A stretch of DNA of 64,000 nt from Haloferax sp. Q22. Its GTDB lineage: Archaea; Halobacteriota; Halobacteria; Halobacteriales; Haloferacaceae. Shown in pieces: positions 10,445-27,848 of this stretch; within the stretch, counting starts at the first letter, position 1; every line of letters starts with the position of its first letter. The notes under the pieces were generated by a model. It was given only the letters and a program-made list of their open reading frames with translations, was not told the DNA's origin and made no database searches. The stretch spans positions 62,001 through 126,000 of the forward strand of contig NZ_LOEP01000014.1 in the NCBI RefSeq assembly GCF_001482285.1. Direction: 5' to 3'. The translations under genes and the position numbers were made by a program.

Positions 10445-10463
10445 ATGTTCTACCAGCGAACAT
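10445..10463. promoter_or_regulatory. Candidate VapB operator palindrome
   Basis: ATGTTC (10445-10450) and GAACAT (10458-10463) form a perfect inverted repeat with a 7-nt spacer, overlapping the vapB start codon at 10462. A TATA-like 'ccttaccca' lies about 27 nt upstream. VapB antitoxins usually bind such palindromes with VapC to repress their own operon. Confidence 0.55.
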
Positions 10464-10737
10464 GGCCACGTCGGTGAAGATGGACGACGACACGAAATCC
10501 CGTCTCGAACGGCTACAGGCCGAGATTCGGCTGAAGACCGGGAAGCGAGTGACGCAGCAGGAAGTCTTGGCGCGGCTCGTCGAGAACGCCGTCGAGTCCA
10601 AGGCTGATCTCATCGACTCGTTCCGCGAGAAGCGTGTTCCGCTTTCGGAGTCCGAGCGCGAGCAGTTCCACGACGGGATGGTCTCGTCCGGCGTCACGAC
10701 GACCGAAGAAGATATCGACGACGTGCTGTACGGATGA
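10462..10737 (+). CDS. vapB: VapB-type antitoxin
   Basis: A 91-residue antitoxin whose N-terminal part (MATSVKMDDDTKSRLERLQAEIRLKTGKRV) resembles a ribbon-helix-helix/VapB DNA-binding domain. The acidic C-terminal half (SESEREQFHDGMVSSGVTTTEEDIDDVLYG) would wrap and block the toxin. It overlaps the downstream PIN-domain gene by 4 bp (ATGA), giving the standard antitoxin-toxin order and translational coupling. A palindrome over the start codon suggests autoregulation. The exact antitoxin subfamily is inferred from the partner and layout. Confidence 0.85.
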   Translation: MATSVKMDDDTKSRLERLQAEIRLKTGKRVTQQEVLARLVENAVESKADLIDSFREKRVPLSESEREQFHDGMVSSGVTTTEEDIDDVLYG

Positions 10738-11165
10738 GCGTCTTCGTCGACACCGGCGTGTTCTTTGCGCACCACGATACGGATGCCGGCCGGCACGACC
10801 AAGCCGTCAGCGCGTTCGACGAACTGTTCGACGGGGAGTTCGGACAGCCGTACACGAACGACTACGTTCTCGACGAGACGGTAACGCTCACGCGCGCCCG
10901 AACGGGTTCGTTCGAGGCGGCGGACACCGTCGCCAGTCGCATTCTCGGCGAGGAACCGTTCCCGAACGTGTTTGAGTTGCTTCACGTCGAACCGGACGAC
11001 GTCCGGGCGTCGCTGGAGACGCTCCGTCGATACGAGGACCACGACCTCAGCTTCACCGACGCGACCATCGTCTCTCTGTGTGAGTCGCGTGGCATCGACG
11101 CCGTGTTGAGTTTTGACACGGATTTCGATGGACTCGTCGACCGCATCGAACCGGGGTACCGCTAG
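10734..11165 (+). CDS. vapC: VapC PIN-domain ribonuclease toxin
   Basis: A 143-residue PIN-domain nuclease that probably cleaves RNA (tRNA or rRNA in characterised VapCs) when freed from VapB. The acidic catalytic residues are visible: Asp in 'MSVFVDTGVFF', Glu in 'NDYVLDETVTLTRAR', Asp in 'HDLSFTDATIVSLCESRGID', and Asp in 'VLSFDTDFDGL'. The length and motif order are typical of archaeal VapC. Its start overlaps the stop of vapB, so both are made from one transcript. All key residues are present, so the toxin looks intact. Confidence 0.92.
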   Translation: MSVFVDTGVFFAHHDTDAGRHDQAVSAFDELFDGEFGQPYTNDYVLDETVTLTRARTGSFEAADTVASRILGEEPFPNVFELLHVEPDDVRASLETLRRYEDHDLSFTDATIVSLCESRGIDAVLSFDTDFDGLVDRIEPGYR

Positions 11166-15268: not shown

Positions 15269-17053
15269 CTACTCGGCTTCCTTTGTGGCGGTCGAGTCCG
15301 AGACGACCGACCACCCCGAAGGGTCGATGTCGTGTCCTTCGACCGCGCTGTGCTCCGGATACGCCGTCATGACCAGATACGTCGGCGTCCCCGAGAGGTA
15401 GTCGGTCAGCCGCCCGAGGTTCTCGTCGGCGATGCCGCCGAGGCGGTCCACGAGCATGACCGGAACGCGATCTGCCACGTCGAACGCCTCGTAGCCCGCG
15501 AGCGCCGTCGCCAATCCGAGGAGTTCGACCTCTCCCTCGCTGAGCGCGTCGAGGGACGCCTCGCGGCCGTCGCGGGCGACGACCAGTTCGAACTCGCTCG
15601 TCAGTCGCGCGCTTTCGAACCCCGTCTCGAACAGCGGAACTATCTCGCGAATCGCGTCGTCGAACGCGTCACGTGTCTCTTTCTTTACCTCTCGTTTCCG
15701 CCGCCGGAGACTGGTTATCTTCTCGGTGAGGGATTCGCGCTGTGAACGGAGTCTATCTCGATTCTCGGCCTTCGATTCGACCGATTCGAGCTCGCCCTTC
15801 GCATCATCGAGCCGCGCTTTCGCGTACTTCAGATTGCTCTCGATATCGGATACGTGTTCACTATCTGATTCGACTCGTTCGCGGAGTTTCTCGACTCGCT
15901 CGGCGAGCTCATCGTCCCGCTCGCGCGCGTCGCCGAGGCGGCGTTCGAGGTCCGACCGGCGCTCGCGTAGCTCCCGAACTTCGGTTCGAAGCTCCCGCTC
16001 GCGTTGGCGCCGCTTCTCGTGCGTCTCGACGCGCTCGGTCAGCCCCTCGACGCGTTCACGACTCGCTTCGGCCGCCGCGGTGCGCCGTTCGATTTTTTCG
16101 GCGAGCTCGTCGAGGCGCTCCGTCACCGACGAGGCGTCCGTCTCGGCGCCGCAGACCCAGCACGCGAGTTCGTCGTCGACGAGGCCGTGGGTCACGTCGG
16201 TCAGCAACTCGGTCCGTCCTTCGGCCACGACGCGGCGGTTCGCGTCGTAGACGCCCCGCAGGAGTTCGATATCGCGCTTCTGCTGGCGGAGCTCCCGCTT
16301 CGCCTCGTCGAGTTCGCGCTCCAGTTCCTCGTCGTCTCCCACGTCGAGTCCGTCGAGCTCTTCGCGGTTCGCTTCGAGTTGCTCGCGGACCCGCTCGGCG
16401 GTCGATTCAAGCCGCTCGATGCGACTCTGGACGCGGGAGCGCTCCGCGCGCGCGTCGCTGAGCGCCTCGCGCGTTTCGTCGTCACCGGCCGCGTCCGCGG
16501 ACGCCTCGAGTTCCGCCTCTAACTCGTCGACTTCGGCTTCGAGTCCCGACACCCGTGAGACGAGCGTCGGCAGGCGCTCGGCCGCGTCCTTGGCCTCGGA
16601 GTGCGCCTCGTCGACGCGGTCGAGCTCGCGGCGGGCCTCGGCGATTTTCGCGTCGATGTCCTCGAAGTCGAGCGGGCGCGTCAGGAGCGGTTCGAGGTCG
16701 TCGCCCTCGCGGACGGCCCGGCGGACCTCGTTCTCCTCGCCGAGGAACGCGAACAGGTCGGCACAGACGCGGTCGACCTCGTCGGACAGATACGGCTCGC
16801 CGGACGTCCGGACGCGCCGCCCGTCGCGGGCCAATTCGACTGTGTACTCCCCGTCGCCCGTCGAAAGCGAGACGCGCCCCTCGGCCGTGCTCTCGGTCAG
16901 CGGCGACGCCGTCCCGAAAGCGGTCGCTATCGCGGCGAGGAAACTCGACTTCCCCTGCCAGTTGCTCGCGCGGACGGTGTTCAACCCCGGTTCGAGCGTC
17001 GCACTCCCGCGTCGAATCCCGGCGACGTTCTCCACGTCGAGCCGCCAGCTCAT
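15269..17053 (-). CDS. Archaea-specific SMC-related coiled-coil ATPase (Sph3/Rad50-like)
   Basis: A 594-residue SMC/Rad50-type protein. The N-terminal head has the Walker A variant 'ASNWQGKSS' (Lys35), characteristic of the archaea-specific SMC-related family. A coiled coil (about 150-290) leads to a CxxC zinc hook 'CWVCG' (about 298-302), then a returning coil (about 310-460). The C-terminal head has the ABC signature 'LSEGEVELLG'; the Walker B region reads 'VPVMLVDRLGGI', without an adjacent glutamate. Two such proteins could dimerise through the hook and ATP heads. It overlaps the RdfA-family gene upstream by 4 bp (ATGA). In Haloferax volcanii relatives of this pair affect cell shape; that link is from memory of the family, not from this sequence. 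Confidence 0.9.
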   Translation of the reverse strand: MSWRLDVENVAGIRRGSATLEPGLNTVRASNWQGKSSFLAAIATAFGTASPLTESTAEGRVSLSTGDGEYTVELARDGRRVRTSGEPYLSDEVDRVCADLFAFLGEENEVRRAVREGDDLEPLLTRPLDFEDIDAKIAEARRELDRVDEAHSEAKDAAERLPTLVSRVSGLEAEVDELEAELEASADAAGDDETREALSDARAERSRVQSRIERLESTAERVREQLEANREELDGLDVGDDEELERELDEAKRELRQQKRDIELLRGVYDANRRVVAEGRTELLTDVTHGLVDDELACWVCGAETDASSVTERLDELAEKIERRTAAAEASRERVEGLTERVETHEKRRQRERELRTEVRELRERRSDLERRLGDARERDDELAERVEKLRERVESDSEHVSDIESNLKYAKARLDDAKGELESVESKAENRDRLRSQRESLTEKITSLRRRKREVKKETRDAFDDAIREIVPLFETGFESARLTSEFELVVARDGREASLDALSEGEVELLGLATALAGYEAFDVADRVPVMLVDRLGGIADENLGRLTDYLSGTPTYLVMTAYPEHSAVEGHDIDPSGWSVVSDSTATKEAE

Positions 17054-17838
17054 GCCATCCCGACGGTCGCGACGAATTCGAGCGTCGCGCCGGAGAACTC
17101 GCCGAACGCGAGGGTCACACTAGAGAGCGCGCCGATGGGGAGTACCGACCGGAGCCGGCCGGCAGAGTCGGCCCCGCCATCGGGCGCGACGCCGGTTTCG
17201 CGGACGGTCCTCTCCGCGGCCTCGTCGGTGTCGACGTGGTGTTCCTGACAGACGAACCCGCGGTCCAGCGCGTCTTCGAGCGGGACCCGCGTCGGACACT
17301 CCGAGCAGGACACCTTGACCTGCACGTCGACGCCGGCGTCCTCGGCCCCGGCGAGCCGCCCTTTCTTCCCCAGCGACGAGAGCGCCGACTCGGCCTTCTG
17401 TCTGGCCGTCTCGCGCGCGATGTCGACACTGTTTCGCTCCCAGTCGGAGGACGCCTCGACGGTCGGCTTCTCGCCGTCGAGACACTCGTTGAGGTGTCGA
17501 CGCATCGTGCTCCACGAGGCCATCGCGCCCGTCACCTCGTCGGCGTCGATGTCGTCGGTGGCGAGGTCGGCGGCCACGTCCCCGTAGTCGAGGTCGTCAT
17601 CGCCGACGAGCGCCTCGTACTCCGCTTCGAGGCGCACCTCGGTCACGTCCCGGTCGTTCCGCTCGTAGACGCGCGCGAGCAGTCGCTTGTTGAACCAGGT
17701 CGTGAGCGACTTGTACCCCTCGCTCTCGCCGCCGTCGGCCCCGGTCCACCGCGCCAGCAGGTAGTCGTCGACGGAGTCGTACCTGCCGGTCGGCGCGGCG
17801 AGCCCGTACCGTTCGATTGCCACGTCGACCTTGCACAT
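17050..17838 (-). CDS. rdfA: Rod-determining factor RdfA family protein
   Basis: A 262-residue protein matching the haloarchaeal RdfA family: it opens 'MCKVDVAIERYGL', followed by 'DDYLLARWTG' and 'SLTTWFNKRLL', the conserved N-terminal winged-helix-like region. A putative zinc ribbon near the end has 'CSECPTRVPLEDALDRGFVCQEHH' character (CxxC then CxxHH). The C-terminal 60 residues are hydrophobic in part. Named members control rod formation in Haloferax volcanii; whether this copy is the shape gene or one of several paralogues cannot be told here. Its stop overlaps the SMC-related start (ATGA), so the two proteins are almost certainly made together. Confidence 0.85.
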   Translation of the reverse strand: MCKVDVAIERYGLAAPTGRYDSVDDYLLARWTGADGGESEGYKSLTTWFNKRLLARVYERNDRDVTEVRLEAEYEALVGDDDLDYGDVAADLATDDIDADEVTGAMASWSTMRRHLNECLDGEKPTVEASSDWERNSVDIARETARQKAESALSSLGKKGRLAGAEDAGVDVQVKVSCSECPTRVPLEDALDRGFVCQEHHVDTDEAAERTVRETGVAPDGGADSAGRLRSVLPIGALSSVTLAFGEFSGATLEFVATVGMA

Positions 17839-17870
17839 TGTCTCGTTGCACGAGACTGGTAGCGCGACGG

Positions 17871-17880
17871 TAATAAGACT
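17871..17880 (-). promoter_or_regulatory. TATA-like element before the RdfA gene
   Basis: On the minus strand the sequence tcttattacc lies about 37 nt before the ATG at 17838 and inside the 68-bp gap after the subunit D-like gene. It suggests that the RdfA/SMC pair has its own promoter with a leader of about 9 nt, in addition to any read-through. Confidence 0.45.
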
Positions 17881-17906
17881 ACGCTTGGCGGACGGACCGA
17901 CTCGGT

Positions 17907-18629
17907 TCAGTCGCGGTCGCGGTCGTCCGCTCGCCGGTCGTTCTCTCGCTGTTCGGCCTCCTCTCGGTCGCTCTCCCGTTGTTCGGCCGCCCGCCGTTCG
18001 TTGCGCCGCTTGGTCCGGAACTGACGGTAGCGCTCTTCCTGCTCGCGCTCGTCGAGGTACCGCCGGATGTACCGTCTTTCCACCTCCAACTCCGGAATGA
18101 GTCGCCGGGTGAGGTAGTTGACGCGGACTCGAAGCCGCCGAACCTCAGCGAGGAGGCGCAGGAGGACAGCCCGCATCTCCGCCAGCCTGACGACGTCCTC
18201 CACGACCGACTCGTACGACCCGACGAGCTCGTCGTCCAGCGCGCTCGTGCCGAGGACGCCGTACCCCCGTCCGTCGAGCGACCGCCGCGCCGACGTGCTC
18301 AGGAAAAACGGGACGGTCAGGCCGACGAGCTTCGTCTCGGAGACGATGAGCCCCGTGTGGGAGTCCCGCGCCTCAGAGAGCGCGCGAAGCGCGATTTCGC
18401 CCTCTCGCTCGGCTCCCCAGACGTGGAGCTCCGCCGCGTCGCGGAACGCCTCGTCGGTCTCGCGCCGGAGGTCGGTCCACCGGTCCAAGAGGTCGAGGAG
18501 GACGAAGACGAGGCTGTCACGCCGCCGTTCGAGGATGTGTTCTCCCTTCCGCGCGAGCGTCAACTCGTCGGTCACCGAGAGGAGCTCGCGGTGCGTCGGG
18601 GTCGTCCGTCGGTGTCGCCGGTTCGTCAT
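17907..18629 (-). CDS. Orphan paralogue of A/V-type ATP synthase subunit D
   Basis: A 240-residue protein aligning along its length with archaeal ATP synthase subunit D, the central-stalk coiled coil. The pattern 'PTHRELLSVTDELTLARKGEHILERRRDSLVF', 'KLVGLTVPFFLSTSARRSLDGRGYGVLGTSA' and 'RRLRVRVNYLTRRLIPELEVERRYIRRYLDEREQEERYRQFR' matches that family, but the sequence is far more arginine-rich than a housekeeping copy. No other ATPase subunit is nearby. The C-terminal tail repeats charged heptads (residues about 205-240). It lies just upstream of the RdfA/SMC pair on the same strand with a 68-bp gap, so a repurposed rod-like subunit is plausible. Confidence 0.82.
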   Translation of the reverse strand: MTNRRHRRTTPTHRELLSVTDELTLARKGEHILERRRDSLVFVLLDLLDRWTDLRRETDEAFRDAAELHVWGAEREGEIALRALSEARDSHTGLIVSETKLVGLTVPFFLSTSARRSLDGRGYGVLGTSALDDELVGSYESVVEDVVRLAEMRAVLLRLLAEVRRLRVRVNYLTRRLIPELEVERRYIRRYLDEREQEERYRQFRTKRRNERRAAEQRESDREEAEQRENDRRADDRDRD

Positions 18630-18656
18630 CGTCTACGCCCCCGTCACACCGACGAC

Positions 18657-18665
18657 AGATATAGT
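18657..18665 (-). promoter_or_regulatory. TATA box for the subunit D-like gene
   Basis: Minus-strand actatatct is centred about 32 nt before the ATG at 18629, giving a leader of only a few nucleotides. It stands out in the GC-rich surroundings. Confidence 0.55.
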
Positions 18666-18691
18666 TGCATGACCGACACGTGCCAGCTCAA

Positions 18692-18718
18692 TTTGACAAG
18701 GACTAAGCCGTTGTCAAA
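18692..18718. promoter_or_regulatory. Inverted repeat upstream of the subunit D-like gene
   Basis: Perfect 8-bp arms tttgacaa (18692-18699) and ttgtcaaa (18711-18718) flank an 11-nt spacer. It lies about 70 nt before the subunit D-like start and about 60 nt after the APC permease stop. It could be an upstream activator or repressor site, or a terminator hairpin for the permease transcript. Confidence 0.45.
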
Positions 18719-18775
18719 ATCGACTCGAAGTTCGCGCTCTCGGCGCGACTGCTCCCGTGGCGCGAGTGAGGTCGC

Positions 18776-21205
18776 TCACTCGTCGTTCCGGACGTGGTAG
18801 TCGCCGCGGCGGCGCTTGAACCACCGCGTCGCCCACGAGATGACGCCGAGGTCGCGCTTCGTCATGATGACCGCGCTCGCGGCGTCGCGGCCGACCGTCT
18901 CCGGAATCGCCCCGAAGACGAGCTGCTGGAGCAGTCCCTCTCTCGTCGCTCCGATGACCGTCAGGTCGAACTCCTCGGCCGCGGCGACGATGGCCGCCGC
19001 CACGTCCTCGCCCTCGCGGACCGAGGTCGTCACCCGAACGTCGTCGCCGACCGCCGCGGCCGTCGAATTAACCCGTCGACGGGCGTCCTCGCGGTCGCTC
19101 TCGTCGGCGTCGGGCGCGACGACGTTCAGCACGTGAACCGTTGCGTCGTTGGTCCGCGCGATGGCTCGGCACACCTCCGCGGCGAGCTCGGCGTGTGGGC
19201 CGCCCGCGGTCGGCAGGAGAATCGATTCCACCTCGCCGTCGGTCGGGCCGATGCGCTCGACGAGCACGTCGCAGGTCGCCTTGGTCACGACCTCGTCGAC
19301 GTTGCTCCCGAGGATGTAGTCGCGGCGGCGTCCCCGGCCGCGCCAACCCATCAACACCGCGTCGCTGTCGTGTTCCTCGATGGTGTTGAGGATGGCCGTT
19401 CCGGCGTCGTGGCCCAGCCTGACGGTCCCGCTGACGGGCACGTCGGCGTCGGTCGCCAGCTCCATCACCGCCGAGATGGTCTCGCGCTTCTCCCCGACGA
19501 ACCGCTCCCCCTCCGAAATCGGCGTCTGCGACGGCACTTCGACGGCGCTCATCACGAGAATCTCGGCGTCGCGGTCGCGCGCCACGTCGATGGCGGTGCG
19601 CATCAACTGCGCCGCGTTCTCCGGGTTAGCAATCGGGACGAGCACCTGCGACTCGCGCCGCTCGGGGGCACGTTCGGTCACGACGGTCGGGGTCTCCGCT
19701 TCGAGCTTTTCGGCCTCCTTGCCCTCGGAGTAGCCGTAGTACACCATCAGCCCGAGCGCCATCCAGACGGCCGTGGTCACGAGCGCGACGAAGCCCTCGG
19801 AACCCGCGCCGAGTCCCGGCGTCAGACCGAGTTCGAGGAGTAAAAACGGCGTCAGGATGAACTGGAGGACGATGCCGACGAGCGGGGGCCACGGCATGTA
19901 CGGTACCTTGAACGTCCGCGGGAGGTCGGGGTGGGTCGCCCGCATCTTGACGACGGTCCAGTTCACCTGGATAAACAGGAAGATGAACATGATGTCGGCG
20001 GCGGCCGCGACGCTCTCGATGGGGAGTGATACGGCCATGAGACCGATGAGGACCGCCGAGAGGCCGATTGCCCAGTGGGGCGTCCGCTTGTCGTCGTGGA
20101 TGCGCCCGAAGAAGCCCGGGAGGACGCGGTCGCGCCCCATGGCGAACGACACCCGCGACGAGGAGTAGATGGTCGCGTTGAGCGCGCTCATCGTCGCCGC
20201 CAGTCCGGCGAACAGGAGCAGCGGGACGCCGTAGGGGACGAACTGCCCGGCGGCCTCGATGATGCCCAGTTCGCCGAGGTTGCCGAGGACCTGCCACGTC
20301 GGCGCGGCGGTCGATAGCCCCGCTCGACCCGCGAGTTCGGCGGTCACGTCGATGCCGCCGATGGCGGCGAAGGCGACCAGGACGTAGATGGGGACCACGA
20401 TGGCCATCGAGTAGAACACCGCCTTCGGGACGTTGGTGCCGGGGTCGACGACCTCCTCGCCCGACTGGACGATTATCTCGTACCCCTCGAAGGCGATGTA
20501 GGTAAAGCCCATCGCGCCGATGACGCCGACGAGGCCGTTGGGCGCGAACGACGGGCTGTCGAAGAACGTCGCCGTCCAGTTCGGCTCGCGCACCGTCGCG
20601 AGGATGCCGAAGACCACGAAGACGCCGAGGATGAGAATCTTGATGGTCGTGACGACGACGCCCGCTTTCCCCGTCTCCTCGGCCCCGCGGTAGTTGATGT
20701 ACGCGAACGCCAGCACCATCACGACCGCGAGCAGTTTCTCGACGAGCAGGCGGTCGAACAGCCCGAACAGGACGAACCCGTCTGGCAGGCCGGCGAACAC
20801 CACGAAGAACTCGGTGAGGAAGACGCCGAAGGTCACCGCGTAGAGCGCGCACGCGACGGCGTGGGCGAACCAGCTCATCCACCCGGCGTAGAAGCCGTTG
20901 GGGTCGGCGAGCGCCTCTTTCACCCAGAGGTAGCCGCCGCCCGCCTCGGGGAACGCCGCTCCGAGTTCGGCGTACGATACCGCGGTGAACATTGCCACCA
21001 TCCCGTTGAGTACGAACGCCATCGTGAGCGCCGGGCCGGCGAGTCCGGCCGCGAATCCCGTCAGCGCGAAGACGCCCGCACCGATCATCGCGCCGACGCC
21101 GATGAACGTGATATCGGCGAGGCTCATGTCGCGCGAGAGCTGCGTTTCCACCGACTCATCTGGGGGAGCGTCGCCGCTCCCCGTGGTCGATTGCGTGTCG
21201 GCCAT
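18776..21205 (-). CDS. APC superfamily amino-acid permease fused to two UspA domains
   Basis: An 809-residue fusion. Residues about 25-480 form a 12-helix APC permease with the conserved first helix 'FIGVGAMIGAGVFALTGFAAGLAGPA', expected to import amino acids or polyamines. Two universal-stress (UspA) domains follow in the cytoplasm, at about 505-650 ('SQVLVPIANPENAAQLMRTA', with a C-terminal 'VLMGWRGRGRRRDYILGS' ATP-binding type loop) and about 655-785 ('ESILLPTAGG', 'LTVIGATREGLLQQLVFG'). The second loop departs from the G-2x-G-9x-G consensus. Such fusions are common in haloarchaea, where the UspA part may regulate transport. It is transcribed alone, leftward. Confidence 0.93.
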   Translation of the reverse strand: MADTQSTTGSGDAPPDESVETQLSRDMSLADITFIGVGAMIGAGVFALTGFAAGLAGPALTMAFVLNGMVAMFTAVSYAELGAAFPEAGGGYLWVKEALADPNGFYAGWMSWFAHAVACALYAVTFGVFLTEFFVVFAGLPDGFVLFGLFDRLLVEKLLAVVMVLAFAYINYRGAEETGKAGVVVTTIKILILGVFVVFGILATVREPNWTATFFDSPSFAPNGLVGVIGAMGFTYIAFEGYEIIVQSGEEVVDPGTNVPKAVFYSMAIVVPIYVLVAFAAIGGIDVTAELAGRAGLSTAAPTWQVLGNLGELGIIEAAGQFVPYGVPLLLFAGLAATMSALNATIYSSSRVSFAMGRDRVLPGFFGRIHDDKRTPHWAIGLSAVLIGLMAVSLPIESVAAAADIMFIFLFIQVNWTVVKMRATHPDLPRTFKVPYMPWPPLVGIVLQFILTPFLLLELGLTPGLGAGSEGFVALVTTAVWMALGLMVYYGYSEGKEAEKLEAETPTVVTERAPERRESQVLVPIANPENAAQLMRTAIDVARDRDAEILVMSAVEVPSQTPISEGERFVGEKRETISAVMELATDADVPVSGTVRLGHDAGTAILNTIEEHDSDAVLMGWRGRGRRRDYILGSNVDEVVTKATCDVLVERIGPTDGEVESILLPTAGGPHAELAAEVCRAIARTNDATVHVLNVVAPDADESDREDARRRVNSTAAAVGDDVRVTTSVREGEDVAAAIVAAAEEFDLTVIGATREGLLQQLVFGAIPETVGRDAASAVIMTKRDLGVISWATRWFKRRRGDYHVRNDE

Positions 21206-21328
21206 CAGTTGAACCCTCGAAGGGTGGACACAAAAACCCCGATGGGCGAGGGGGCGCGTTCGAGCCGCCGTCGCCGTGTTCTAACCCGCGAAATACGGGT
21301 GTTTTTCGACCGGGCGCGTCCCGGCGCA

Positions 21329-22795
21329 CTACCCGCCGAACATCGTCCGCATCATGGGGTGCATCTCCATGAGCTGTTCCTCCGCGATTTCCTCGTACAG
21401 TTTGTACGTGATGGAGACCGTGAGGAGTAGCGAGGTTCCCGAGACGCCCCCGATGGTGCCGAGCATGTTCGCCATGACGGCGAGCAGGCCGACGAGGACG
21501 CCCCCGACAACCGTCACCTGCGGGATGTACCGCTCCATGACCCGCTCTATGACCTGCGGGTTGCGGCGGAACCCGGGTATCTGCATCCCGGAGTTCTGAA
21601 TCTGCCGCGCGGTCGCCTCCGGGCCCATGTCGGCGGTCTCGACCCAGAAGATGGAGAAGATGGCCCCACCGACGAGCATCAGCGTCAGGTCGATGGCGAC
21701 GCGGACAAGAAGCTGCCACGGCTCTTGGGACGCCGATCCGAGCCACCACATCCACTGGCTGGGCGCGTGAATCGGGTTCAGGTAGTAGAACAGACCGCCG
21801 GTGACCTGTCCGCTCGTGTACTGGCCGAGCCACGCGGGCATGCCGGCCCACTGACTGTTGAGAATCCGGCCGAGGAACTGGATGTTCGCCTGCACGGCGC
21901 GGACGAAAATCATCGGCAGGACGCTCGCGTAGATGAGCTTCACGGGGAAGCGACCGCGAGCGCCCTTCACGCGGGCGTGCGAGAGCGGGATTTCGACGCG
22001 AACGCTCTCGGCGTAGACGACGATGCCGAAGATGAGCACCGTCGTGATGAGCGGGACGACCCCGCCCACGCCGAACAGGAGCGCCTGTATCCCGCTCGCC
22101 GTCGCGAGCGACGGGACGGTCTCGGTCCCGGCGAGCACGTGGACCCACTCGGAGACGATGCCGGTCGTCGACGCGCCGAAGGCGGGGTCGGCGAAGAGGC
22201 CGCCGACGAGGCGCTGGCTGACGCCGGCGATGATGAACAGGCCGACCCCGGAGCCGACGCCCCACTTGCTGACGACCTCGTCCATGAACAACACGAGCGC
22301 GCCGCCGACGAATATCTGGGCGAAGATGAGCCACTTCACGCCGACCGTCCCGACGCCGAGGGCGCTCGCGACCGCTGGGTCGGCCGGGAGGTAGCCCCCG
22401 GCGAAGACGACCGGCAGGCCCTGCAGGGCGATCATCCCGAAGACGAGTAGTTTCTGGAGCCCCTGATAGAGGATTTGGTCGCGCGGGTCGTCCGTGTCGA
22501 GACCGAGCATGTCCCCGCCCTGCAGCAGTTGCAGGACGATGCTCGCGGTGACGATGGGACCGATACCCAACTGGAGGATGGTCCCCTGTCCCCCGCCGAG
22601 GATGGAGCGGAACTGCCCGAAGATGTCCTGGCTCCCCGTCCCGACGCCGAAGAGCGTGACGTTCGTCAGGAAGAAGTACAGGACGAGAATCCCGGCGGTC
22701 CAGCCGAGCTTTCGGCGGAACGGAACGTGTCCCTCCGGGCGGGAGACGGCGGGCATCCGGCTCAGGATCGGCGATACGGTGTCTTTCCAACTCAT
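21329..22795 (-). CDS. secY: Preprotein translocase subunit SecY
   Basis: A 488-residue SecY/Sec61-alpha protein, the pore of the Sec translocon. The start at 22795 gives the family N-terminus (MSWKDTVSPILSRMPAVSRPEGHVPFRRKLGW), with the amphipathic helix before helix 1. The plug and helix 2 region reads 'ILGGGQGTILQLGIGPIVTASIVLQLL'. The cytosolic loop with 'VRVEIPLSHARVKGARGRFPVKLIYASVLPMIF' that contacts ribosomes and SRP receptor is intact, as is the C-terminal 'MEMHPMMRTMFGG'. It sits between an APC permease and an unknown membrane protein rather than in the ribosomal L15-secY-adk context, so a second copy elsewhere is possible. The longer frame to 22855 is not needed. Confidence 0.95.
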   Translation of the reverse strand: MSWKDTVSPILSRMPAVSRPEGHVPFRRKLGWTAGILVLYFFLTNVTLFGVGTGSQDIFGQFRSILGGGQGTILQLGIGPIVTASIVLQLLQGGDMLGLDTDDPRDQILYQGLQKLLVFGMIALQGLPVVFAGGYLPADPAVASALGVGTVGVKWLIFAQIFVGGALVLFMDEVVSKWGVGSGVGLFIIAGVSQRLVGGLFADPAFGASTTGIVSEWVHVLAGTETVPSLATASGIQALLFGVGGVVPLITTVLIFGIVVYAESVRVEIPLSHARVKGARGRFPVKLIYASVLPMIFVRAVQANIQFLGRILNSQWAGMPAWLGQYTSGQVTGGLFYYLNPIHAPSQWMWWLGSASQEPWQLLVRVAIDLTLMLVGGAIFSIFWVETADMGPEATARQIQNSGMQIPGFRRNPQVIERVMERYIPQVTVVGGVLVGLLAVMANMLGTIGGVSGTSLLLTVSITYKLYEEIAEEQLMEMHPMMRTMFGG

Positions 22796-22956
22796 GGTCG
22801 ATTGCGAGTGGCTGTTGGCGATTGCATGGTCTGTCGCGCCGACCGGCGTCGTCACTACGCGAGCGACGTCCGCACGGGACGCCGTCGCTGTGCTCGCGAA
22901 TCGGCGGTTCAGTCAGTCGTGGCCAGTCGTCGCCAATAACTGTATCGATGCGGTGA

Positions 22957-23676
22957 CTATCCGTCAGCCGGCGTCGTCGCCGGCGCCGAGGCCATGGGCT
23001 CGGCCACCGCCGCCACGTCGAGCGAATCGTGCGGTTCCGCGTCGACGACGCGGAGCGGGAGCCGCCGCCCCGCCCGGTCGAACGCGGCCACGCAGTCGTC
23101 GTCCCACGGCGGGACCGAGACGAGGACGACCTCGCGGAGCGTGTCGCGCTTCGTCGGCGCCAGCGGCCCCCACGGGTGCGAGACGAACTGCCCCGGCGTC
23201 CGGCCCGGCGCGGTCGAGAGGTCGACGCCGAAGATGCCCCGAACCGCCGCGCCGGCGCTCGGGTGGACGAAGTGGCTGAACACCGGCCGGGCCGCATCGA
23301 GGGCGTTCGCCCCGTCCAACTCGGCCGCGGCGGTCGTTCCGAGCGACAGCGACTCCCGACTCGGTTCGGCGCGAGCCGCCCGGTCCACCAGCGCGTCGAG
23401 CAGTCCGCGGGTGACGAAGACCGCGTCGCGTTCGGGGTCGCGTTCTGGGCCGACGCGTCGCCGAGCGCGCCGCGGTCCGACGAGCCGAGTTGCGACGGCG
23501 ACCCACCAGAGACCGACGCCCAGCACCTCGGCGTCGCTCGCGGCTTGGAGCTCCCACGGGAGGTGCGGCAGTCCGAGTCTGAGCGTCGTGACCTGCACGG
23601 CGAGTCCGGCGAGGACGAGGACGGCTCCGAGCGCGGTGGCGAGACGAGTGAGACGGGAAACGGAATCGCGGTTCAT
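22957..23676 (-). CDS. Haloarchaeal membrane-anchored protein, function unknown
   Basis: A 239-residue protein with two N-terminal hydrophobic segments (LATALGAVLVLAGLAVQVTTL and LGVGLWWVAVATRLVG), then a soluble cytoplasmic-side or external domain with acidic character. I do not recognise a catalytic motif. It is encoded upstream of secY on the same strand with a gap of about 160 bp. The gap is too long to assert an operon. The start at ATG 23676 precedes the first helix by about nine residues. Confidence 0.68.
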   Translation of the reverse strand: MNRDSVSRLTRLATALGAVLVLAGLAVQVTTLRLGLPHLPWELQAASDAEVLGVGLWWVAVATRLVGPRRARRRVGPERDPERDAVFVTRGLLDALVDRAARAEPSRESLSLGTTAAAELDGANALDAARPVFSHFVHPSAGAAVRGIFGVDLSTAPGRTPGQFVSHPWGPLAPTKRDTLREVVLVSVPPWDDDCVAAFDRAGRRLPLRVVDAEPHDSLDVAAVAEPMASAPATTPADG

Positions 23677-23978
23677 CGGTGTGCTGTGTTCGGTCAGTCG
23701 CGGTGTCGTTTTCGGTTTGGCAATCGCTTAGTGGTTGTCGGTTGTTTCGAGAAGTTAGTACTTGAAAAAGACTATAAGCGTCCACGCGAAAGCCCTGATT
23801 GCCGTGTTCCACGGCGCACGAAGCGGCCAACCGCTACCCGTCGTCTTCGATTCGATAGCACCCTTCGGTGGCTTAGCCTGCCCGGTGTCGTCACCGTTGA
23901 CCGCTTCGACAAGCGACACCCCATCCGACGCACCCCCCTTGTTTCGGCATCGCGTCGGCGGGTGCGCGCTCGACAACC
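23677..23978. other. Divergent intergenic region
   Basis: About 300 bp between a leftward and a rightward small membrane-protein gene. An AT island at 23755-23780 (ttgaaaaagactataagc) contains TATA-like runs on both strands and probably marks a promoter. No coding sequence with good composition is seen, although an open frame from 23762 crosses it. Confidence 0.4.
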
Positions 23979-24344
23979 ATGACGAGTACACAGTCACGAT
24001 TGCCGGTCGAACGCTCGCTTGCGCGAACGACGCTCGGCGTCGACCTCGCGTCGCCGGCGGCGCTCGCCGTCGCGGCCGTCGTGTTCCGCGGCCCCTCGGC
24101 GGAGGTCGGCGACGACGCCGTCGCCAGCGTCCTCCTACTGGGCGTCGCCTGTACCGGCCTGTTGCAGCTCGCGGCGCGTGGCGGCCTCTCCTACCCCACC
24201 AAGTCCGCGGGCGTCCTCGTCGGGCTGTGGCTTGTCGGCGTGTCATTCGACCTCGGCGCGGGTCATCTCCTGATGTTGGTCGGCGTCTTCGCGGGCGGCT
24301 GCGTCGTCGCGACGCACGCCGCGCTCGTGTGCGCCGCCCCCTGA
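23979..24344 (+). CDS. Small membrane protein, function unknown
   Basis: A 121-residue protein composed almost entirely of hydrophobic segments (SPAALAVAAVVFRG, VASVLLLGVACTGLLQLAA, SAGVLVGLWLVGVSFDLG, LLMLVGVFAGGCVVATHAALVC), predicting three or four membrane helices. No family was recognised. It precedes the ClC channel gene by 76 bp on the same strand and could share its transcript. Confidence 0.62.
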   Translation: MTSTQSRLPVERSLARTTLGVDLASPAALAVAAVVFRGPSAEVGDDAVASVLLLGVACTGLLQLAARGGLSYPTKSAGVLVGLWLVGVSFDLGAGHLLMLVGVFAGGCVVATHAALVCAAP

Positions 24345-24420
24345 CCCGCTTCGCGGCCGCTCGCCGCCCGGGTGTTCGAAGCGAAACTGACTAACACCCT
24401 ATCGCGCAAGATTGACTCGG

Positions 24421-26382
24421 ATGCCCCACGACGTGAGTGACGAGTCTACCCTGCGAGCGCGGGCCCGCAGGGCGATACGGACGGCGGAGGTCAAACCGCG
24501 GTACGAAGACATCGCGATGAACGTGCTGCCGGTCGCCATCGGCGTCGTCGCCGGGCTGGGTGCCGTCGTCTTCCGGGTCGGTATCTGGGTCGTCCAGGAA
24601 CTGCTCTACGGCACCTCGCTCAACCCGGGGAACGTCTCGTTCGCGCTCGTGCCCGTGACCAACGCCTTCGACCTCCTGTCCCCGCTCGGGTCGCTCCGAT
24701 ACGCGGCCATCCCCGCGCTGGGCGGCCTCCTCGTCGGCGTCGTCGTCCTGCTCACGACCGACGCGGTCAAGGGCCACGGCGTGCCGAGCGTCCTCGACGC
24801 GATGCTGAACCGCGGCGGCCGCATCAGCCCGAAAATCGCCCTGTACAAGACGCTCGCGTCGAGCGTCGCCATCGGAAGCGGGGCGTCGCTCGGCCGCGAG
24901 GGGCCCATCATCCAAATCGGGAGTGCCGCCGGGTCCTTCTTCGGCCGGTTCGTCCGGTCGCGGCACACCCGGACGCTCGTCGCGGCGGGGGCGGCCGCCG
25001 GCATCGCGGGCACGTTCAACACGCCCATCGGGGGCATCATGTTCGCGCTCGAAATCCTCCTCGCGGAGTACTACCTCGGCCACGTCATCACGGTCGTTCT
25101 CGCTGCGCTGACGGCGACGGCGGTCGCTCGCCCGATTCTGGAGTTCTCGCCGACGCCCGGCATCCGCGAGTTCCTCGTGCCGGCGTCCTACCAGTTGGTG
25201 ACACCGGCGGTCGAACTCCCCATCTATCTGCTTTTGGGCGTCGTCGTCGGCCTTGTCGGCGCGGGCCTCGTGAAACTGCTTTACGGCGTCGAGCACGTCT
25301 TCGAGCGCCTCGATGCGCCGGGCTATCTCAAGCCCGCGCTGGGCGGGCTCCTGCTGGGCGTGAGCGTCCTCGTCGGCACCGTCGTCCTCGGCGTCGCCCC
25401 CGGGACGGCCGCCGGACTCCTGCTCGGCGTCGGCTACGGCGTCGTCCACCGGAGCATCGACGGCGGCTTCCTCTTCGGTGCGCTCGTCGCGCTGGCGGTC
25501 CTCAAGGCGGTCGGCTTCTCGCTGTCGGTCGGCAGTGGGAGTTCCGGCGGCGTGTTTTCGCCGTCGCTGTTCGTGGGTGCCACCGTCGGCGGCGCGTTCG
25601 GCCTCGCGGTCCACGCGCTCGTCCCCGGGACGGCTCCCTCGGGCGCGTACGCGTTGGTCGGGATGGGCGGCATCTTCGCCGCGACCGCCGGCGCGCCGCT
25701 CACCGCCATCATCATGATTTTCGAACTCACCGGCCAGTACACCATCATCCTCCCGCTCCTCATGGTCAGCGTCGTCGGGAGCGAAATCGCGAGCTACCTC
25801 CTCAACGGCAGTACCATCTACACGCAGAAGCTCCGCGACCTCGGCTACACGGTCCAAGAGCGCCGCATCGGGAGCATCGAAGACGTCCACGTCGCCGACG
25901 TGATGACGAGCGCCGTCGACACCGTCCGAGCGGGAACGCCGCTTTCGGAGGCCGTCAAACGGCTCTGCGACACCGACCACGGCGGGCTCCCCATCGTCGA
26001 GGCTGACGAGTCGCTCGCCGGTATCGTCGTCCAGAGCGACGCCCAGGAGTACCTGACCGAGAACATAGAGAGCGCCGACGGCGACGACGGCCCGGCGGCG
26101 GACCCGCCGGTTGAGGAGGTCGGCACGCGGCCCGTCGTCACGACGACGCCGAACAGCAACCTCCTCCACGTCGTGGACGCGATGGAGGCCGCCGACGTGG
26201 GTCGGGTCCCGGTCGTCGACGGCGCGGAGGTCGTCGGCATAATCACGCGGAGCGACGTGCTCGACGCCTACGACGATATCCCCATCGAGTCGGCGGTCGA
26301 ACCGACTCGCTGTCGCCGGGGGGACGAGCGAGCGCAGTCAGACTCGCGGGCGACTCCCCCTGCCGCGGCGGGCGACCGCTGA
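24421..26382 (+). CDS. ClC-type chloride channel/antiporter with CBS domains
   Basis: A 653-residue ClC family protein that moves chloride, either as a channel or in exchange for protons; chloride balance is central in haloarchaea. The selectivity motifs are visible: 'GSGASLGREGPIIQIG' (gating glutamate in GREGP), 'AGTFNTPIGGIMFALE', and 'GSGSSGGVFSPSLFVG'. Two CBS domains occupy about residues 485-630 ('VADVMTSAVDTVRAGTPLSEAVKRL' and 'TRPVVTTTPNSNLLHVVDAMEAADVGRVPVVDGAEVVGIITRSDVLD'), which often sense adenine nucleotides. The ATG at 24421 is preferred over a TTG nine bases upstream. The gene stands alone or with the small upstream gene. Confidence 0.93.
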   Translation: MPHDVSDESTLRARARRAIRTAEVKPRYEDIAMNVLPVAIGVVAGLGAVVFRVGIWVVQELLYGTSLNPGNVSFALVPVTNAFDLLSPLGSLRYAAIPALGGLLVGVVVLLTTDAVKGHGVPSVLDAMLNRGGRISPKIALYKTLASSVAIGSGASLGREGPIIQIGSAAGSFFGRFVRSRHTRTLVAAGAAAGIAGTFNTPIGGIMFALEILLAEYYLGHVITVVLAALTATAVARPILEFSPTPGIREFLVPASYQLVTPAVELPIYLLLGVVVGLVGAGLVKLLYGVEHVFERLDAPGYLKPALGGLLLGVSVLVGTVVLGVAPGTAAGLLLGVGYGVVHRSIDGGFLFGALVALAVLKAVGFSLSVGSGSSGGVFSPSLFVGATVGGAFGLAVHALVPGTAPSGAYALVGMGGIFAATAGAPLTAIIMIFELTGQYTIILPLLMVSVVGSEIASYLLNGSTIYTQKLRDLGYTVQERRIGSIEDVHVADVMTSAVDTVRAGTPLSEAVKRLCDTDHGGLPIVEADESLAGIVVQSDAQEYLTENIESADGDDGPAADPPVEEVGTRPVVTTTPNSNLLHVVDAMEAADVGRVPVVDGAEVVGIITRSDVLDAYDDIPIESAVEPTRCRRGDERAQSDSRATPPAAAGDR

Positions 26383-26396
26383 CCAGCGGCGGAAAA

Positions 26397-26825
26397 TCAG
26401 TTCGCGCCGACCTCGGGACCGATGAGAATCCAATGGAGCCGGTTCTCTCCGCCGGGGTGGCGCTCCCACCGGACGTGGTAGACGGCAGGTCCGTGCGGGC
26501 ACGACGCACAGCCCTCGGCGCACGGTGTCCGCTTGTGGACTTCGAGGTAGCCCGCGTGCGGCACGACTCTCGTGAGCACCTCGTCCGGGCCGCGGAAGCG
26601 CTCTATCGCCGCCTCACGGCCGGATACGCCGTCGGTGCGGTCGCCACCGCCGCCGATGTCATCGGCGTCGCGGGTCTCGCCCCTGCGGCGGTGTCCGCTG
26701 GGCGCCCCGCGGTCGCGCTCGTTTTCGACGTACTCGACGAGCGCTTCGATTTCCGCCTCGTCGAGTTCGGGTGTCGTCGCGGGCGAGTCGCTCGGCTCTC
26801 GCCGCTCGAATTCGTCGCGGTCCAT
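26397..26825 (-). CDS. Hypothetical protein with Cys-rich metal-binding motif
   Basis: A 142-residue acidic protein. Its N-terminal half is disordered and charged. The C-terminal half contains 'LEVHKRTPCAEGCASCPHGPAVYHVRWERHPGGENRLHWILIGP', where three closely spaced cysteines and a following histidine (C-x3-C-x2-C-x-H) suggest a zinc site; this arrangement recalls small DUF6788-type proteins that carry a Cys cluster followed by 'HGPYxxxxW'. It is convergent with the ClC gene. No function can be assigned. Confidence 0.62.
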   Translation of the reverse strand: MDRDEFERREPSDSPATTPELDEAEIEALVEYVENERDRGAPSGHRRRGETRDADDIGGGGDRTDGVSGREAAIERFRGPDEVLTRVVPHAGYLEVHKRTPCAEGCASCPHGPAVYHVRWERHPGGENRLHWILIGPEVGAN

Positions 26826-26930
26826 GCCGGAGTCTCGTCGCGGCGTCGGTATATACGAACCGGTTTGAAATTCCCTAAGGGGTTGTCAAAGGTGGCGCGA
26901 GCTGAGGTTCGAGTGGGCAGTTCGCGTCGC

Positions 26931-27848
26931 TCAGGAAGAGCTCGTGGACTCCGGGTCCGAGCGGGCGGTCCCGGAGGGGTCGATACCGAGATACTTCTGA
27001 CAGAGCTGTCTGGCGGCGAACGAGCAGAGGAAGTACCAGATGATCCACGCCGGCATGGGCCCGAAGACGGCGTCCTGCCAGCCGACCCGTCCGACGAGGG
27101 GAAGAATCACGTGTGCGGAGCCGGCGGCGATGTGGCCGCCGCGGACCTTCCAGCGCATCCAGAGGAACGCCGGGATGGTGACGAGCATTATCCAGACCAT
27201 CGGCCTGAACTGCGCTTTCATGACGCTCCACTGGTCGCCCATCGCCTCCATCTGTTCTTTTTCGAGGCGTTCGAGGGCGTCGTCGTCGCCGCGCTCTTTC
27301 GCCGCCTCCCGGCGCGACTTCAAGTCGTCCATCCGGGCTTGGTGGCGTTCGAGGAGCGCCGTGTCCTTCAGTCGGTCCTGCATCACGGTTGAGTAGAGGC
27401 CGGTGGCCGCGGCGAGGACGATGACGACGGCGTAGAACGGTATCGAGTGCGCCAGCGGCCCGAGCACGACGTTGTCGATGCCGGCGACTGCGTTTCGGAT
27501 GCCGGCGTTCGAGTAGCCGGCGAACAGGACGACGACGCCGAGCGCGCCGAGCTTGTCCCACCGAGACCACGATGACTCGGCGTCGTCGCTCTCGTCTTCA
27601 GTGCCGGAGTCGTGCGACTGCAGTTTCGAGGCGATTCGGTCGGAGTCGGACAGGACGAAGCCGCCGGCCGCGGCGTCGGTCAGGACGCCCCGCTCGATGA
27701 GGCGACCCCACTGACCGCTCGACAGCGCGTCGTTCACGTCACGCCAGCGGAGCTCTTCGGTCCCCTGTTTCGACCGTTCGACGACGACCGAGAGCGCCTC
27801 CCGCATCGCCGGATTGTCCAGTAACGTCTCTAGGGAGTCTGCGGGCAT
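26931..27848 (-). CDS. DUF106/EMC3-TMCO1 family membrane protein (Oxa1 superfamily)
   Basis: A 305-residue protein. Residues about 1-70 resemble the winged-helix-like extension of haloarchaeal DUF106 proteins (LRWRDVNDALSSGQWGRLIERGVLTDA). Three membrane segments follow, at about 95-115 and 130-150 and later (FRPMVWIMLVTIPAFLWMRWKV, VGWQDAVFGPMPAWIIWYFLCSFAARQL), with a long cytosolic coiled coil between (RLKDTALLERHQARMDDLKSRREAAKERGDDDALERLEKEQ). Members are Oxa1-superfamily insertases working with ribosome and SecYEG, so its presence about 4 kb from secY is notable. The start at 27848 gives the canonical N-terminus. Confidence 0.85.
   Translation of the reverse strand: MPADSLETLLDNPAMREALSVVVERSKQGTEELRWRDVNDALSSGQWGRLIERGVLTDAAAGGFVLSDSDRIASKLQSHDSGTEDESDDAESSWSRWDKLGALGVVVLFAGYSNAGIRNAVAGIDNVVLGPLAHSIPFYAVVIVLAAATGLYSTVMQDRLKDTALLERHQARMDDLKSRREAAKERGDDDALERLEKEQMEAMGDQWSVMKAQFRPMVWIMLVTIPAFLWMRWKVRGGHIAAGSAHVILPLVGRVGWQDAVFGPMPAWIIWYFLCSFAARQLCQKYLGIDPSGTARSDPESTSSS

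Follow-up and report, generated by a model that had tools for sequence, protein, structure and literature searches.

A Haloferax plasmid island with an RdfA–ASRP pair, an orphan ATP synthase subunit D, predicted membrane-biogenesis genes and a shared 25-bp palindrome

In Haloferax volcanii, rods require RdfA and the neighbouring SMC-like protein Sph3, encoded by the pair HVO_2174–HVO_2175, and 42 of 54 surveyed RdfA-family genes adjoin an SMC-like gene (PMC10869688). The archaea-specific SMC-related ATPases (ASRPs) belong to the SMC superfamily and contain zinc hooks (PMC9389158). Here we describe an RdfA–ASRP pair in Haloferax sp. Q22, together with an orphan paralogue of the A/V-type ATP synthase subunit D (subD), encoded immediately upstream on the same strand. 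The window, meaning the whole stretch of DNA that was analysed, is 64,000 nucleotides long. Judged from their sequence context, the three genes belong to an accessory island of approximately 12.5 kb on a Haloferax plasmid. We consider it probable that the genes of this island are controlled jointly via a 25-bp palindromic operator, and that subD is a paralogue of the rotor shaft that was recruited into it.

The three genes and their closest relatives

The core of the locus comprises the following features.

15269 to 17053, minus strand: ASRP, 594 amino acids, archaea-specific SMC-related ATPase (NF045487, 466.8 bits against a cut-off of 300)
17050 to 17838, minus strand: RdfA-family protein, 262 amino acids, long form with a hydrophobic C-terminal tail (PF21811, 126.9 bits against a gathering cut-off of 27)
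17839 to 17906, minus strand: gap of 68 bp between subD and RdfA, likely RdfA promoter, with the conserved TATA-like stretch GTCTTATTACC
17907 to 18629, minus strand: subD, orphan A/V-type ATP synthase subunit D paralogue, 240 amino acids (PF01813, 127 bits against a cut-off of 25.7; TIGR00309, 94 bits)

Gene calls and profile scores agree fully with a preliminary description of this DNA in coordinates, strands, the 4-bp overlap between the RdfA and ASRP genes, and the 68-bp gap. Its treatment of RdfA and ASRP as a known pair also holds: the families are usually adjacent (PMC10869688), and in a comparison set of approximately 20 kb around each of 60 window-type RdfA genes from outside Haloferax, an ASRP homologue lies within 10 kb of RdfA at 58 loci. 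The translation of the window ASRP contains the sequence CWVC, a CxxC zinc-hook-like motif, between its coiled coils. The pair thus consists of the same two adjacent families as HVO_2174–HVO_2175, but it is a diverged paralogue that sits on a plasmid, with other genes around it. Against PF21811 its RdfA reaches 127 bits, whereas the two other RdfA copies of the same genome score 237–251 bits, and it is longer than the HVO_2174 type, with a hydrophobic tail; a need for rod shape is known for HVO_2174 only (PMC10869688).

The TATA-like stretch in the 68-bp gap is near-identical across five Haloferax, and a GTAATCACGTTTATTA-like stretch is similarly placed upstream of RdfA in other genera, where subD is missing. 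RdfA has a promoter-like stretch of its own in this gap, which is likely to be its promoter. We note that a perfect inverted repeat, GTCTCGT-GCA-ACGAGAC, is found at 17840–17856, immediately before the RdfA start; it is imperfect in other Haloferax.

The subD protein meets the cut-offs of PF01813 and TIGR00309 and matches the whole PF01813 profile, but its best score against the NCBIfam equivalogs for canonical subunit D is 142 bits, below the cut-off of 261. The AlphaFold model, built on an alignment of four rows, has the long helical hairpin of subunit D (mean predicted local distance difference test score 79.6, with a weak middle domain), and its best Foldseek matches are V/A-ATPase D subunits. 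subD therefore shares both fold and full-length homology with the central-shaft subunit D of the A-type ATP synthase. The canonical subunit D is encoded on a different contig (G000:C8) and is 31–32% identical to subD. The preliminary description had the subunit taken from an ATP synthase next door, which is incorrect, because the canonical gene is elsewhere and a check of the window proteins for ATP synthase relatives found no credible one besides subD.

Orphan D differs from canonical D in more than its location. Twelve orphan D sequences, that of the window and 11 others, form a single clade with a long stem and support of 100/100 in a tree where the row can_L123 is the Halorarius orphan a second time. 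Canonical archaeal D has 59 positions with conservation of 90% or more; orphan D keeps 34 of these and has replaced 25, and the orphans have a conserved set of their own, for example LRVRVNYL in place of the canonical TKRRVNAL; the length of the shaft is the same. The core of orphan D is near neutral, whereas haloarchaeal canonical D is acidic. In Haloferax the orphan also has a C-terminal tail of R/E-rich repeats (units like REAERQEAE) that varies in length between species, giving proteins of 240–285 residues (variable-tail genes at L006 9180–10034, L014 10001–10855 and L015 10001–10771). The ratio of nonsynonymous to synonymous substitution rates (dN/dS) within Haloferax is 0.15–0.17 for subD, lower than for RdfA (0.24–0.30) and ASRP (0.23–0.25), and subD is therefore a working gene, under strong purifying selection. 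We also considered whether subD belongs to a set of stray D genes on plasmids and viruses. This was rejected: tblastn gave only two Haloferax plasmids and no phage.

The island and its shared palindrome

The promoter of the orphan D gene holds the palindrome TTGACAANNNCTNAGNNNTTGTCAA. A matrix was trained on non-Haloferax sites only, with the 25-bp consensus GTAACAACCACTAAGTGGTTGTTAC, and scans for the palindrome covered the window, the retrieved loci, one entire plasmid, 105 kb of Haloferax chromosome, and viral contigs. The window sites and the island genes beyond the core are as follows; no strand is assigned to the palindromes or to the deleted stretch.

18693 to 18717: palindrome TTGACAAGGACTAAGCCGTTGTCAA, putative operator 63 bp upstream of subD, score 32.4, the best in the window
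18776 to 21205, minus strand: APC permease with C-terminal universal-stress domains (PF00324, PF00582)
21329 to 22855, minus strand: SecY2, a second SecY (PF00344 and plug domain PF10559)
22957 to 23676, minus strand: TM22957, unnamed protein with a membrane segment at its N-terminus, recurring beside SecY2
23717 to 23741: palindrome TTGGCAATCGCTTAGTGGTTGTCGG, 40 bp upstream of TM22957-SecY2, score 22.8
24412 to 26382, plus strand: ClC-type chloride channel with CBS domains (PF00654, PF00571)
26397 to 26825, minus strand: o26397, small protein containing Cys, recurrent in the island
26865 to 26889: palindrome TTGAAATTCCCTAAGGGGTTGTCAA, 39 bp upstream of o26397, score 19.2
26931 to 27848, minus strand: second DUF106/EMC3-type insertase paralogue (PF01956, 139 bits against a cut-off of 27)
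15346 to 27768: stretch missing from the H. gibbonsii plasmid pHG2, where the 3′ end of ASRP is fused to the 5′ end of DUF106

With the non-Haloferax matrix, the rest of the window scores at most 4.3, against 19.2–32.4 for the three island sites. When up to four mismatches are allowed, there are 38 palindromes in 1.19 Mb of RdfA loci, against 1 expected from shuffles; at the same threshold the window has three, all inside the island, and the 105 kb of Haloferax chromosome has none. The complete 285-kb Haloferax plasmid pSVX82-2 contains exactly three sites, all in the island, the strongest of them 64 bp upstream of subD, and everything else on it scores at most 7.0. The palindrome is present at all 13 loci that bear the insertase and at 5 of the 47 others (Fisher p 1.7e-9, with kinship ignored).

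The sites lie mostly 30–160 bp upstream of gene starts: 63–64 bp before subD, 40–100 bp before TM22957-SecY2 in most loci (approximately 320 bp in two), 29–50 bp before o26397 in most loci, 94–163 bp before DUF106 in most, and 48–82 bp before RdfA in three. They also occur in the divergent region that DUF106 or subD shares with an ABC-2 ATPase. Five Haloferax conserve the palindrome of the subD promoter even though the flanks differ. From the placement of the sites we infer a role as transcription operator, with joint expression of SecY2, DUF106, o26397 and orphan D. Since subD has the island palindrome, a putative operator links it to the rest of the island in addition to its position.

The palindrome could instead be a parS-like landing or loading site for the RdfA–ASRP of the island, of which subD happens to carry one. 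Such a role would suit the several copies per island, their confinement to islands that encode the long-form RdfA–ASRP, the position of some copies at gene ends, and the membership of ASRPs in the SMC superfamily. However, most copies stand at promoter distance from the starts of the same few genes, and the motif is missing from 42 of the 47 RdfA-bearing loci that lack DUF106. We therefore regard a parS-like site as quite improbable.

Palindromes were also seen in other settings. Two metagenomic contigs listed as viral each have a single strong one (score 30.3; L212 5961 and L213 10155), with no recognised island gene in the available stretch. Others lie near potassium-uptake-like genes (L125 8883 and L140 6938; TrkH is annotated approximately 0.6 kb away, and a TrkA-like N-terminus is 215 bp away), hinting that the regulon may include ion transport.

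The gene set around the window-type RdfA is recurrent. At the 60 non-Haloferax loci the neighbours include DUF106 (13 loci), the APC permease (11), SecY (8), TM22957 (8) and o26397 (6), with subD at none, and the same set occurs together on a plasmid of Haloarcula pelagica. An ABC-2 ATPase and permease recur in the DUF106-bearing loci, at 49–56% and 44–51% identity respectively; this pair adjoins orphan D in H. sulfurifontis and H. lucentense and is missing from the window strain. RdfA is of the long form (248–252 residues) at all 13 insertase-bearing loci, with the hydrophobic C-terminal tail in those examined.

Gram-positive bacteria have an accessory SecA2–SecY2 system, which the island resembles in having a second SecY beside special partners. 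The partners differ: in the island they are the DUF106 insertase paralogue, transporters and RdfA–ASRP, and SecA is not known in archaea. The island SecY2 is not a member of the SecA2–SecY2 system and at most works like it. The chromosomal SecY is 76–77% identical to SecY2. A published proposal places DUF106 in the Oxa1 superfamily as its archaeal branch (PMC8887752), and the PF01956 match relates the island copy to these DUF106/EMC3/Oxa1-superfamily insertases; compared with the known ones it is an additional, plasmid-borne paralogue, 53% identical to the canonical chromosomal DUF106. The same contig carries, to the left of the window, a third gene of the DUF106 type, with 36% identity to the island copy (G000:C6:56478–57332). 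Just left of the island, at 10462–11165 on the plus strand, a small gene and a PIN-domain gene overlap at their ends and are likely to be a toxin–antitoxin pair; the H. gibbonsii and H. lucentense plasmids share it (annotated as PIN-domain protein). A literature search, mostly of papers available without subscription, found no paper on the SecY2-DUF106-RdfA-ASRP island, the palindrome, a Haloferax subunit D paralogue or an orphan D subfamily, and none on a haloarchaeal SecY2-DUF106 set stood out.

Distribution of subD and loss of the block

Of 15 Haloferax species, the same 4 carry orphan D, the window-type RdfA and the APC permease, and the remaining 11 lack all three. subD also stands beside the pair on two complete Haloferax plasmids, and the H. 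lucentense plasmid covers 98% of window positions 1–25000 at 91% identity, with the same annotated gene order. The arrangement is therefore not peculiar to this genome. Outside Haloferax the result is the opposite: none of the 60 loci has a subunit D gene within 10 kb of RdfA. A survey of the class found orphan D in 9 of 391 genomes (5 genera) and the window-type RdfA in 108 (41 genera). The orphan D genes of G044, G047, G048, G063, G076, G020 and Halorarius adjoin no intact RdfA–ASRP pair, so that subD is beside an intact pair only in Haloferax. Among the five orphan-D genomes outside Haloferax in this survey, G020 alone has the window-type RdfA, 364 kb from orphan D; there is therefore no genome-level co-occurrence outside Haloferax, and an enrichment of this RdfA type in such genomes was rejected (1 of 5).

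There are two traces of the island near orphan D in other genera. In G063 a decayed ASRP remnant and two palindromes lie approximately 0.6–1.2 kb from orphan D, and in Halorarius litoreus an island-type ABC-2 pair lies approximately 8 kb from it. These weakly suggest a link between orphan D and the island beyond Haloferax. A special closeness of the G063 remnant to the window ASRP was considered and rejected, its C-terminal identity of 67% being no higher than at many loci. Elsewhere, orphan D is divergently paired in two genera with a GH15-type glycosidase gene, the two copies being 80% identical (L009 10698–12914 and L011 7332–9383), and in two genomes of one genus it stands beside the same methyltransferase, 76% identical (L008 9155–9796 and L010 10313–10975).

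The Haloferax carriers are not monophyletic in a tree of the atp region, which the H. gibbonsii plasmid pHG2 accounts for at least in part. In this plasmid the last ASRP codons are joined directly to the first DUF106 codons, and approximately 12.4 kb between short shared sequences is gone. Presence and absence of the APC permease and of SecY2 follow those of the three genes. An independent co-gain of the three genes was therefore rejected; the shared pattern and the pHG2 scar indicate that the whole block was gained or lost at once. Because the block is lost as a unit, its co-occurrence in Haloferax is not independent evidence for a module of three genes.

These results bear on whether the adjacency has any meaning at all. 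A stray subD might have landed beside RdfA–ASRP on one Haloferax plasmid lineage and merely been carried along. Adjacency to an intact pair is indeed confined to one genus, the co-presence in 4 of 15 species reflects the block, and the orphan D genes of other genera lie beside unrelated genes. Against this, subD carries the strongest palindrome of the whole plasmid in its promoter, conserved despite differing flanks, it is under strong purifying selection, and there are the island traces near orphan D in two other genera. We consider such passive linkage unlikely, though it is the alternative to be taken most seriously.

The preliminary description went further and saw subD, RdfA and ASRP as one physical assembly linking cell shape, DNA and a rotor-like rod. 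The conserved adjacency in Haloferax, the need of H. volcanii rods for RdfA and Sph3, whose families are usually adjacent (PMC10869688), and the zinc hooks of ASRPs (PMC9389158) would all be compatible with this. However, subD is absent from the 60 other loci of the window RdfA type, orphan D occurs in six other genera apart from an intact pair, RdfA has its own promoter-like stretch, and nothing in the sequence points to an interaction. At the 60 loci from outside Haloferax the three genes never occur together within 1 kb, and beyond that genus only the decayed trace in G063 recalls the arrangement. We find such an assembly very improbable, and the earlier interpretation as a whole is only partly supported.

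The proposed regulon and its significance

In the explanation that we favour, joint control through a 25-bp palindromic operator, the conserved core of the island would supply extra membrane-protein biogenesis and transport, through SecY2, the DUF106/EMC3-type insertase, the ABC-2 exporter and the APC-Usp permease. The core would also include an RdfA–ASRP pair of the subtype with a hydrophobic-tailed RdfA. Most likely, the extra insertion and transport capacity is provided under some condition. Orphan D would be a diverged rotor-shaft paralogue recruited into the island, remaining intact there now only in Haloferax, and transcribed from its own operator-bearing promoter. Once the island is switched on, its target would probably be the membrane or the A-type ATPase.

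Several observations weigh against this explanation. Some palindromes are far from a start, after genes or between convergent genes, so that another DNA-binding role, such as a landing site for a protein, would be possible. The seed motif was first spotted at subD and RdfA promoters that belong to the data set itself, and loci that are related do not count as independent. Of the seven non-Haloferax orphan D loci, five are without any trace of the island, and in none does the subD promoter itself contain the palindrome. Finally, the biochemical roles given to the island products are all deduced from sequence, and those of the membrane genes from homology.

A more specific version sees the island as an operator-controlled membrane-remodelling kit of spare SecY, spare DUF106 insertase, exporters and RdfA–ASRP, to which the Haloferax orphan D would contribute a swap-in shaft, replacing the normal D and altering the coupling or regulation of the A-type ATPase when the kit is on. 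This version is speculative, and we think it rather improbable.

If the palindrome is an operator, the regulon would join a second Sec translocon and an insertase to RdfA–ASRP, a pair with a partner family that H. volcanii requires to form rods. It would then offer a concrete route to the roles of RdfA–ASRP pairs outside cell shape. The orphan D subfamily represents natural variants of the rotor shaft under purifying selection, useful for determining which residues of D the motor needs, and for asking whether archaea swap rotor parts.

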